Virus record (IMG/VR): IMGVR_UViG_3300020463_000065
Location: 1-33,715 of that record
Source: a virus
DNA length: 33,715 bases
Reading direction: 5' to 3' (one strand)
Positions 4,228 to 7,479 of the stretch are shown one piece after another. Numbering within the stretch: position 1 is the stretch's first letter; every line of letters starts with the position of its first letter. A model generated the notes under the pieces. It saw only the letters and a program-made list of their open reading frames with translations. It made no database searches and was not told where the DNA came from. Position numbers and translations under genes: made by a program.

Positions 4228-4693
4228 GGATTTCGTAACCAAACCCAATCCCATATTCGGTGACCTACCACCATGTCCGTTCGCACAGAAGGCCATAGTG
4301 GATGGCAAGGTCAAATTCCTCGAGTTGGACGGCATTGGTGAGTTCGGGACAATATTCACACACATATGGAATTTCAACTTTGACAAAAAAGATGTGTTGG
4401 TGATCATAGCGGAGCCAGACCAGTTCACTGCCAAGCAGACGGTGGAGATAGCAGACAAGCTCAACTTTGCGTTCATGCCACGTGATGTTGTTGTGCTGGA
4501 GGATCATCCAAAAATTAAAGAGTCCGTGAAAGGAATAAAACTCAACAACGGTCATTTCATATTGTTCCTGGCACAGAAGTTAAGCAAGTTGAACAGGTTT
4601 TCCAAAATGCTAGAGTCAGGACCCTACTATAAAAATTGGTCTAAAGACTACCTTAAATCAGTGAAAGGTTTCCGAGATCGGAAAAGTCAGTAA
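4172..4693 (+). CDS. DUF1415-like hypothetical protein (173 aa)
   Basis: The start is supported by AAGGA six bases before ATG, although it overlaps the previous gene by 56 bases. Residues 17-42 read WIRDFVTKPNPIFGDLPPCP, then FAQKA and a short K-rich segment. The 'W...V......CPFA..a...gkV.f' pattern is like the start of the DUF1415 family (bacterial proteins with W...V..LnLCPFA). The later DVLVIIAEPDQFT followed by a helix also fits that family's 'lLv.Pd...f..' core. The function of DUF1415 is unknown. The single Cys in CPFA could be functional. The gene ends inside the 3' end of the convergent acyltransferase-like gene, with a 41-base overlap. Confidence 0.6.
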   Translation: MATQPKKQTPTQTIQTWIRDFVTKPNPIFGDLPPCPFAQKAIVDGKVKFLELDGIGEFGTIFTHIWNFNFDKKDVLVIIAEPDQFTAKQTVEIADKLNFAFMPRDVVVLEDHPKIKESVKGIKLNNGHFILFLAQKLSKLNRFSKMLESGPYYKNWSKDYLKSVKGFRDRKSQ

Positions 4694-5414
4694 GTTTACT
4701 GTCCCTCCTACACAATCGTTTGTACTGTTTCTTGTTGGTGCTCCATTCGGTGCCGGTCCACCACTCGAAACCCCGGTAGTTGGCCTTGTACTCCGATGAC
4801 TGCTCGTAACCGGATCCCATGTAGAAGTACCTCACGTGGTTGTCCGAGGCCCACTCTATCTCCATGTCCAGCGTGATGTCCGATATGGGTATGTTGTTGG
4901 CGTGTATCACGCTCTCCAGTCCCGCCAGATCCTGTGAGTCATAGGTGTCTATGGTTGAGTAGTTGTCCTCCTGGTACCTGTATCTTTTCTGTTTGGTGAA
5001 ACCCACCACGTTGTCAGCGGTGCCCAGGTAGAACACCACGAACTGGTCACGTTTGTGGTAGTGTGCGAAGGGGTCGTAGTCCGCGCCAAAATTTTTCCGC
5101 TTCATGTACTGCTTGTAGATAGAGGGCAGGCTCAACAACTTAACCATCTCACTTGCGTCTATTATCTTGTAACCCACCTTCTCGCCATTGTAGGTGTGTG
5201 ATTTGTACCTGGGACGGTATAGGTCCAGGTTTATGCGTGTGCTACGTGATTGGTAGAAAACCTCGTTGTGACCATCCATGGGATGGTCCAGCGCCAGCCA
5301 ACCTCGATCTATCGCTTCCGCTTCTTCGTCGGAGTCCACAATGGCCATGGGCCGGCATATCACCAGATCCTGTTGTTCCTGTTTGCCGAAAGTGTGATCG
5401 AAGAGTAGTTCCAT
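4653..5414 (-). CDS. GNAT-fold acyltransferase-like protein resembling aminoacyl-tRNA-protein transferase (253 aa)
   Basis: Not a standard T4 gene. Residues about 115-221 look like the C-terminal acyltransferase half of arginyl/leucyl-tRNA-protein transferases (Ate/Bpt). They have DPFAHYHKRDQFVVFYLGTA then VVGFTKQKRY, where Ate has 'f....l.av.v.D..'. An internal DLAGLESVI helix stands where Ate has 'sLG.ysal.EI'. Last is VRYFYMGSGYEQSSEYKANY followed by RGFEWWTG, very like Ate 'YyyLGyYi..c.kM.YKa.y.P.ell'. The N-terminal Cys cluster of Ate is absent; Cys20 and Cys236 are isolated. If the relation holds, it would move an acyl or aminoacyl group onto a protein or small acceptor; the substrate cannot be read. 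It may instead be another GNAT branch. Its 5' side abuts the structured, gene-free region at 5.4-5.86 kb, which on this strand would be its leader. The Shine-Dalgarno is weak. Confidence 0.6.
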   Translation of the reverse strand: MELLFDHTFGKQEQQDLVICRPMAIVDSDEEAEAIDRGWLALDHPMDGHNEVFYQSRSTRINLDLYRPRYKSHTYNGEKVGYKIIDASEMVKLLSLPSIYKQYMKRKNFGADYDPFAHYHKRDQFVVFYLGTADNVVGFTKQKRYRYQEDNYSTIDTYDSQDLAGLESVIHANNIPISDITLDMEIEWASDNHVRYFYMGSGYEQSSEYKANYRGFEWWTGTEWSTNKKQYKRLCRRDSKLTDFSDLGNLSLI

Positions 5415-5436: not shown

Positions 5437-5830
5437 AAGACGGCTTACGCCATCTGAAACTTCGCTTTACGCTCGTTTCTTTTTTCTAACTTACGCAGTT
5501 GTAAAAAACTTGAACGCATTGTGCGTTCCCTGTGGTAGATGAGCAGTCACAATTCGGCTATCTCTAGCCGAACTGACTTAAACCCTGTGGTGAGTTCACA
5601 GTCACTATACATCGCTACTGGCGTCGGGCGGTTGTGCTGTACCCGTTTGCTCATTCATTACAACGCGAATCTACCAAACCCCTGTATAATGGTTCCTGGT
5701 AAATCTGAGGTCTATCTTTTTCTAGGAGCCTCATCATTTTTTGCTGTTTGCATCTAAGGATTCACCTGTCGCTTGTTAGCCGCATTTCCTTGCTCACTGG
5801 TTGCGATGCTATGTTTGCCTGATTGAAATT
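5437..5830 (-). ncRNA. Candidate structured noncoding RNA or long structured leader
   Basis: No plausible protein gene fills 5415-5904, but inverted repeats are dense. 5553-5560 pairs with 5565-5572 (8 bp), extended by 5545-5549 with 5574-5578. 5512-5518 pairs with 5522-5528 (7 bp). 5440-5445 pairs with 5450-5455. 5585-5589 pairs with 5597-5601, and 5707-5710 with 5729-5732. A long-range helix joins 5534-5545 to 5648-5654 plus 5671-5675 (12 bp with one bulge). Strand choice: read on the minus strand, two loops become GNRA tetraloops (GAGA and GUAA) and one stem gains a G-U pair that would be C-A on the plus strand. It could be a free RNA of about 400 nt or the 5' leader of the acyltransferase-like gene. 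Exact ends are unknown. I looked for tmRNA, RNase P, group I intron and tRNA signatures and found none. Confidence 0.5.
5528..5605. repeat. Imperfect 23-bp direct repeat, two copies
   Basis: Copies at 5528-5550 and 5583-5605 share CCCTGTGGT at one end and CAGTCAC at the other, 17 of 23 positions in all. They flank the 5553-5572 hairpin, so they are probably part of the folded RNA (two alternative partners for the long-range helix) rather than a mobile-element scar. Confidence 0.55.
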
Positions 5831-5841
5831 TAAAAAGATGT

Positions 5842-5858
5842 AGTGTGCCTATCACACT
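5842..5858. repeat. Inverted repeat AGTGTG-CCTAT-CACACT
   Basis: A perfect 6-bp inverted repeat with a 5-base spacer, 46 bases before the GIY-YIG ATG. Read on the minus strand it is followed, after a few bases, by TCTTTTT and could be the first hairpin of the structured RNA. Read on the plus strand it lies in the nuclease leader and could be an operator or mRNA hairpin. Confidence 0.45.
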
Positions 5859-5904
5859 TGTTTATATGAGTTTTATTTGTAGGTCAATCTTTTTGGCTTT
5901 AAAT

Positions 5905-6318
5905 ATGGCTATGCATTGGACGTACCAAGGAAATAAAATTACCAACATGCCGGAAGATGTTGTGGGATTTGTCTATCTAATAACAAATACAACCAACGGT
6001 AGGATGTACATAGGCAAGAAACTGGCCAGGTTCAAGAGATCCAGACCTCCACTCAAGGGCAGGAAGAACAAGCGTAGATACAAGGTTGATTCGGACTGGC
6101 AGGACTACTATGGATCAAGTGACGACCTGACGATAGATGTCAACAAACTTGGTAAAGACAAATTCACAAGGGAAATACTTTTCTACTGCAAGTCCAAGGC
6201 GGAACTTTCCTACGTGGAAGCACGTGAACAATTCGCACACAAGGTACTGGAATCAAACGATTATTACAATGGTCACATCCGTGTGAGGGTGCATGGCAAA
6301 GGAATATTGAAGAAATGA
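5905..6318 (+). CDS. GIY-YIG endonuclease, free-standing (137 aa)
   Basis: A compact GIY-YIG nuclease with little beyond the catalytic domain. Residues about 20-39 hold the defining motif: VGFVYLITNTTNGRMYIGKK. A basic loop follows (KRSRPPLKGRKNKRR), then WQDYYGSS, LGKDKFTREIL, and the conserved acidic helix SYVEAREQF, whose Glu binds the metal. This layout matches free-standing endonucleases of T4-like marine phages and T4 Seg-type homing enzymes. It cuts DNA, probably in phage intergenic or competitor sequence; the target is unknown. I chose ATG 5905 (ATG 5911 is also possible) over the GTG at 5845, because the latter would add a hydrophobic tail across the inverted repeat. The stop overlaps the next start (ATGA). 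It stands between the RNA-like region and an AT-rich block, as expected for an element that moves with its neighbours. Confidence 0.85.
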   Translation: MAMHWTYQGNKITNMPEDVVGFVYLITNTTNGRMYIGKKLARFKRSRPPLKGRKNKRRYKVDSDWQDYYGSSDDLTIDVNKLGKDKFTREILFYCKSKAELSYVEAREQFAHKVLESNDYYNGHIRVRVHGKGILKK

Positions 6319-7284: not shown

Positions 7285-7479
7285 TTACGCCGCTGTCTTC
7301 GCCGCGTTCTTGACTTCCTGAATTTCTTTTCTTCTGGCTTTGATCAACTTAGACAGATTTGCCAATGCTTTTCTGGCTCTAGTTGCAGATGCTTTGACAC
7401 CTTTCTCAACGAACTTACCATTCTCTTCTGAGTAAGTTTGAATCTCTGTCATGATCGATTCATGTGTTTCATTTGACAT
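7285..7479 (-). CDS. Histone H1-like (Hc1-type) basic protein (64 aa)
   Basis: 64 residues in two parts: an acidic helix (MSNETHESIMTEIQTYSEEN) and a basic, Ala/Lys/Arg-rich helix (KASATRARKALANLSKLIKA, then RRKEIQEVKNAAKTAA). The 'KgvkAsatRaRkaL..L.Kl.K..RkEi.e.K' pattern matches the Hc1 family of bacterial histone H1-like proteins that coat DNA, and similar small proteins are common in marine T4-like phages. It probably binds phage or host DNA. It is a single-gene unit: a strong Shine-Dalgarno (AGGAG seven bases before ATG) at one end and an intrinsic terminator at the other suggest high expression. It sits on the opposite strand to its neighbours. Confidence 0.75.
   Translation of the reverse strand: MSNETHESIMTEIQTYSEENGKFVEKGVKASATRARKALANLSKLIKARRKEIQEVKNAAKTAA

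Follow-up and report, generated by a model that had tools for sequence, protein, structure and literature searches.

A structured RNA of no known family encoded between two genes of marine phages

To place the feature in its genomic context, we first examined the window, i.e., the whole 33,715-nt stretch of DNA that was analysed (the virus record IMGVR_UViG_3300020463_000065), which derives from a marine T4-like phage. Between an acyltransferase-like gene (4653-5414, minus strand) and a gene for a GIY-YIG nuclease (5905-6318, plus strand) lies a stretch, 5437-5860, that holds no credible gene. Pfam classifies the GIY-YIG protein as SegE, although its relatives are annotated as 'NAD synthetase' in many cyanophage records and in PHROG 447, a label that looks wrong. 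The acyltransferase-like gene resembles arginyl-tRNA-protein transferase (ATE1), as 5 of 20 homologues match ATE_C in Pfam and its predicted model (pLDDT 83) best matches human ATE1 (Foldseek E 5e-6), whereas tblastn found no relative of it in INPHARED; whether it acts with the element described here is not known. Further along, the window encodes a small histone H1-like protein of the Hc1 family (7285-7479, minus strand; Pfam E 3e-12).

A sequence-only reading had proposed that 5437-5860 is an uncharacterised structured RNA of about 400 nt read from the minus strand, with at least six local hairpins, GNRA tetraloops and a 12-bp long-range helix, and that it could be a free RNA, a regulatory leader or a ribozyme remnant. 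Folding showed that the minus strand is strongly structured (-123.9 kcal/mol, z = -4.8, 0 of 100 shuffles as good), and more so than the plus strand (z = -2.3). Comparison with Rfam 15, which had been named as a check, gave 0 matches at the curated gathering score in the window and in 33 loci, and relaxed searches of the window and divergent members gave only short, chance-level hits. A resemblance by eye to conserved regions of RNase P was dropped because no RNase P model matched, and ARAGORN predicted no tRNA or tmRNA.

We next sought homologues of the region. Using the two flanking genes as anchors, we found it in most neighbouring contigs at 75-95% DNA identity over about 500 nt. An exact scan for its most conserved string, GGTACAGCACAACCGCC, returned at least 120 stretches in IMG/VR and 33 hits in GTDB genomes, of which only four belong to the family, all on marine MAG contigs that also carry the phage neighbour genes. 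Removal of duplicates left 110 distinct 430-nt cores. A second scan that allowed a changed stem added five stretches, three of them distinct: L325 (same as L337) and L329 at 155-158 bits, and L343 (same as L346) at 52 bits, where L numbers denote individual loci carrying the RNA and the lineages they represent. This gave 113 non-identical versions in IMG/VR phage contigs and marine MAG contigs, whereas 29 of the 33 genome-contig hits of motif D (the invariant loop described below) and 22 of 27 hits of the second pattern carried only the motif and are chance. Identity to the window falls from 96% to 43%, yet a covariance model built from members at about 60% or more found the divergent ones over its full length with E from 2e-14 to 5e-7; as those members share the 17-nt search motif by selection (about 15 bits), the 16-40 further bits are the independent evidence. 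Whole records carry one copy each, and the cultured phages Melnitz-3, P-SSM2 and Yut3 carry none. At the settings used, no record matched by blastn in INPHARED (six lineages as queries) or in the plasmid collection PLSDB, and 288 other genomes of the class of the Pelagibacter MAG held no copy under strict filters. Searches of the literature, which covered open-licence PubMed Central papers only, found no description of it. In the same 110 loci, the RNA is more conserved (87% nt identity on average) than the two flanking genes (78.5% and 82.6%).

These comparisons resolved a conserved core at 5809-5438 and a probable transcript of about 5855-5438, close to the 5437-5860 proposed earlier, with the following features (percentages are paired cells; "both-sided" gives the pairs that change on both sides).

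5882..5887, minus strand: -35 box TTGACC of the RNA's promoter, supported also by column conservation
5861..5866, minus strand: -10-like box TATAAA (TATATA/TATAAT-like in other lineages), supported also by column conservation; transcript start inferred near 5855
5820..5855, minus strand: variable 5' leader with AGGCA-type repeats, from sequence comparison
5750..5809, minus strand: 5' domain of helix 5809-5805/5754-5750, helix 5791-5788/5759-5756 and hairpin 5781-5768 (96.8%, 96.6% and 82.5%; both-sided 3 of 5, 3 of 4 and 4 of 4); pair 5790-5757 E<0.05
5707..5732, minus strand: hairpin P1 with conserved GGC and AGAAAnAGA (100%; both-sided 5 of 6); 5731-5708 and 5724-5713 E<0.05
5669..5704, minus strand: hairpin P2 (10+2 pairs), whose loop takes part in the pseudoknot (97.6%; both-sided 11 of 12); 5698-5675 and 5696-5677 E<0.05
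5683..5690, minus strand: 5' strand of the pseudoknot, AUUAUACA (98.7%; both-sided 6 of 8)
5604..5611, minus strand: 3' strand of the pseudoknot, UGUAUAGU (as the 5' strand)
5625..5645, minus strand: hairpin D, CGGG-UACAGCACAACCG-CCCG, with an invariant loop (motif D); 5645-5625 E<0.05; stem compensated in L192, L325 and L343
5580..5603, minus strand: twin hairpin 1, with matched loop sequence 5591-5583 (ACCACAGGG)
5550..5575, minus strand: hairpin E with GNRA loop, between the twins (98.9%; both-sided 5 of 11); 5569-5556 E<0.05
5526..5548, minus strand: twin hairpin 2, with matched loop sequence 5536-5528 (ACCACAGGG)
5456..5479, minus strand: 3' hairpin T1, cap GAGCG..GCGAA (98.8%; both-sided 5 of 7)
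5438..5455, minus strand: 3' terminal hairpin T2 with GNRA loop (99.5%; both-sided 3 of 7); terminator role uncertain (short T run)

To evaluate whether the fold is supported by compensatory changes, whose absence the sequence-only reading had said would count against it, we applied a covariation test that shuffles parsimony substitutions on the tree, which gave the seven pairs with E < 0.05 over all column pairs that are listed above, all of them 94-100% canonical and within nested helices. On a 60-sequence alignment, 55 named pairs form standard pairs in 94.2% of 3,284 pair cells, against 36-41% when partners are slid, and 35 of the 55 change on both sides. The pseudoknot between the loop of P2 (5690-5683) and 5611-5604 also covaries, although its best pair just misses the alignment-wide threshold (E = 0.067), with three pairs having per-pair p of 8e-7 to 3e-4. 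Divergent lineages have a different complementary pair of strings (7-10 bp) near the same places, for example CUUGCGUGGG/CCCACGCAAG in L251, and GCCGUUAU/AUAACGGU in L171 against GCCUUUAU/AUAAAGGU in L237, though tested one by one these are often near chance. A second pseudoknot is possible between the invariant GCGUUG (5666-5661) and ACAACC (5634-5628) of the invariant loop of hairpin D, but as neither side varies, covariation gives no information on it. A 5' hairpin at 5856-5842 in one fixed register and a hairpin in the variable linker after twin 2 did not hold up across the family.

Evaluating the individual claims further, we found that the earlier observation of a gene-free, strongly structured stretch is confirmed, as are its local hairpins and GNRA loops. 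The latter are conserved as a class, with hairpin 5575-5550 having GAGA in the window and GAAA/GUAA/GCAA/GCGA elsewhere (56 of 60 GNRA) and hairpin 5455-5438 having GUAA or another GNRA loop in 72 of 96. The argument for the minus strand was also right, since in supported helices G-U occurs 249 times and A-C 6 times on that strand. A protein frame conserved across the region, which had likewise been set out in advance as evidence against an RNA, was rejected: the only notable ORF (5539-5757, plus strand, 72 aa) is full length without a stop in 17 of 96 homologues, while 48 have a stop inside the best match. By contrast, the proposed long-range helix (5534-5545 with 5648-5654 and 5671-5675) is not supported, as a 3-pair version of its inner part is paired in only 85% of cells (16 of 60 sequences fail at the middle pair), its covariation is not above the null (p about 0.39), and strand 5671-5675 belongs to the proven hairpin 5704-5669; the real long-range element is the pseudoknot. 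Apart from this helix, the interpretation as an uncharacterised minus-strand structured RNA fitting no known family is supported, and of the three options it offered, the free RNA is favoured.

To assess whether the RNA might form its own transcription unit, we searched upstream of it and found a TTGAC box and a TATA-like box separated by 13-19 nt in 70 of 109 loci, against 0.5% of shuffles. In the window the spacing is 15 nt, two shorter than in several relatives. Minus-strand transcription, the remaining point that had been named as a test, was not examined and no transcript has been seen, and because T2 is not followed by a strong U run, a separate 3' end is not proven. The variable leader carries one to several AGGCA-type repeats in many lineages (5820-5850 in the window), to which we assign no meaning.

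The 3' arm held a further feature in the two hairpins that flank hairpin E, which in each phage carry the same 5-9-nt loop sequence while that sequence differs between lineages: ACCACAGGG twice, ACCACAGAG twice, AGUACA twice, AGCACAU twice, AACGUGAUG twice, ACAUGAUG twice, AGAUGAU twice, GGUAAU twice, AGAUAGA twice, and AAAUCAAG twice in L325 against GAAUCAAG twice in L329. Among 28 representatives below 80% identity, the mean longest common string was 7.4 nt within a phage against 4.6 nt across phages of mismatched lineages, with 0 of 20,000 permutations as high. On the tree, four position pairs (5591/5536, 5590/5535, 5589/5534 and 5585/5530) change mostly on the same branches (5, 4, 3 and 5 shared), and the sister pairs L181/L215 and L325/L329 changed both loops alike. 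The stems closing the twin loops pair in only 66-68% of cells, so their exact presentation is uncertain. No third site in the RNA covaries with the loops as a complement, neither the loop string nor its complement is enriched in nearby phage DNA, and the 9-mer is not enriched in four large contigs.

We then compared the neighbourhoods. In most lineages the RNA lies in one region between genes 46/47 (recombination nuclease subunits) and 51/26 (baseplate), named here by resemblance of the protein sequences, next to a SegE-type GIY-YIG gene on either strand; in two divergent lineages this gene is replaced by a PDDEXK_15 nuclease (L251:10702-11223 and L185:6634-7164). In L192, L207 and L236 (contigs of 330, 69 and 111 kb) the neighbours are different and no such nuclease was seen nearby in the stretch read. 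The downstream gene is not constant either, which argues against a leader.

Taken together, we propose that this is the gene of a free-standing, trans-acting phage RNA of about 420 nt, transcribed from the minus strand by host-type (sigma70-like) RNA polymerase, probably early in infection. In this view, it folds into a pseudoknotted core with an invariant 13-nt loop (UACAGCACAACCG) and a 3' arm displaying two hairpins with the same loop sequence, which would be two binding sites for one partner that differs between phage lineages, such that the RNA would work as a bivalent scaffold or decoy during infection. A new, deeply conserved, structured phage RNA class is well supported. Our analyses demonstrate the fold, the strand, the conservation, the non-coding nature, the single copy per record and the concerted change of the two loops, whereas independent transcription (from the promoter and varying neighbours), early timing, the binding of one partner and the biological role are inferences. 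We put the probability of this reading as a whole at roughly 0.55; that the element is a structured RNA is nearly certain, that it is free-standing is likely, and that the twin loops bind a common partner is as likely as not, being a reasoned hypothesis for which no partner was found. One partner bound twice is the simplest reading of the loops, with recombination (conversion) between the two copies being the main alternative. More tentatively, and somewhat less likely than not, the RNA could represent a new class with a constant pseudoknotted body and two identical, exchangeable recognition loops, whose shared sequence is retuned in each phage lineage to hold one rapidly changing host or phage partner at two points.

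Among other explanations, two are unlikely but survive about equally well. The RNA could be the partner of the neighbouring nuclease (GIY-YIG or PDDEXK), as in RNA-guided or RNA-associated mobile nucleases, given its position in most loci and that two matched variable loops could be guides. However, linkage to one nuclease family is not obligatory, since the nuclease type changes or, in the L192, L207 and L236 lineage, no such nuclease lies nearby in the stretch read, and a 58% identical GIY-YIG gene in phage Melnitz-3 and about 40% identical ones in a cyanophage and a Stenotrophomonas phage occur without the RNA. The lack of an enriched target in local phage DNA or in four large contigs leaves guiding undecided, as host targets were not searched, and the co-location is largely a shared locus between genes 46/47 and 26/51. 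Alternatively, the RNA could assemble into a homo-oligomeric particle like GOLLD or ROOL with the twin loops as intermolecular contacts, as it is phage-encoded, large, single copy, pseudoknotted and conserved without an obligatory protein gene. Against this, there is no Rfam similarity, no tRNA genes, near which GOLLD and ROOL are frequently located, occur in the window or in 14 loci checked, most twin loops are not self-complementary, and no internal site covaries with them as a complement; oligomeric state was not measured here.

Less likely still is a cis-regulatory 5' leader of the ATE1-like gene, even though in the window and many close relatives this gene follows on the same strand, 24 nt after the last hairpin, with no strong terminator between them. 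In L038 and L056 the gene is 1.4-2.1 kb away, in L164 it is divergent, in L189 and L205 its remote relative lies further downstream on the other strand, and the subfamilies of L237, L215, L192 and L185 have no such gene detected nearby, yet the fold persists in all. A remnant of a self-splicing intron or another ribozyme, suggested by the GIY-YIG neighbour and compact pseudoknotted fold, is very unlikely because the element is intergenic, no Rfam intron or ribozyme matched even at E up to 10 in the window or E up to 5 in two divergent members, and a structured core conserved more than its flanking genes is not a decaying remnant, although catalysis as such was not assayed.

Few large structured RNAs of phages are recognised, and the function of most is unknown. 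This one is evidently kept under strong selection across many uncultured phages, including T4-like phages and contigs up to 330 kb, yet it is absent from Rfam and was not found in the phage isolates searched. The concerted twin loops give an unusually direct handle, as the partner should be found by comparing lineages with different loops, and loop swaps should move specificity.

Among known systems, the cyanophage cis-regulatory RNAs manA, wcaG and PhotoRC-II (PMC2864571) are likewise structured RNAs found mostly in marine sequences and in T4-like phages, but they precede metabolic or photosynthesis genes, whereas this RNA has no fixed downstream gene and no model match. Nuclease-associated RNAs such as HEARO and TnpB-associated reRNAs (PMC11061315 for the latter) share a structured RNA often beside a nuclease gene, but here the nuclease type changes or is absent, relatives of the nuclease occur without the RNA, and no model matched. 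In CsrB-type sponge RNAs a repeated loop sequence could similarly titrate one binding protein, though our RNA has two loops only, no constant GGA pattern, a loop sequence that changes between lineages and no Rfam match. GOLLD and ROOL RNAs (PMC12286853) are also large, pseudoknotted, phage-encoded structured RNAs of unknown function, from which this RNA differs in having no sequence or model similarity, a clearly shorter length (about 420 nt against 659 nt and more), no tRNA genes nearby and matched twin loops. What is new is the RNA family and its twin-loop design, while as a broad kind it joins phage RNAs of unknown function such as GOLLD and ROOL.
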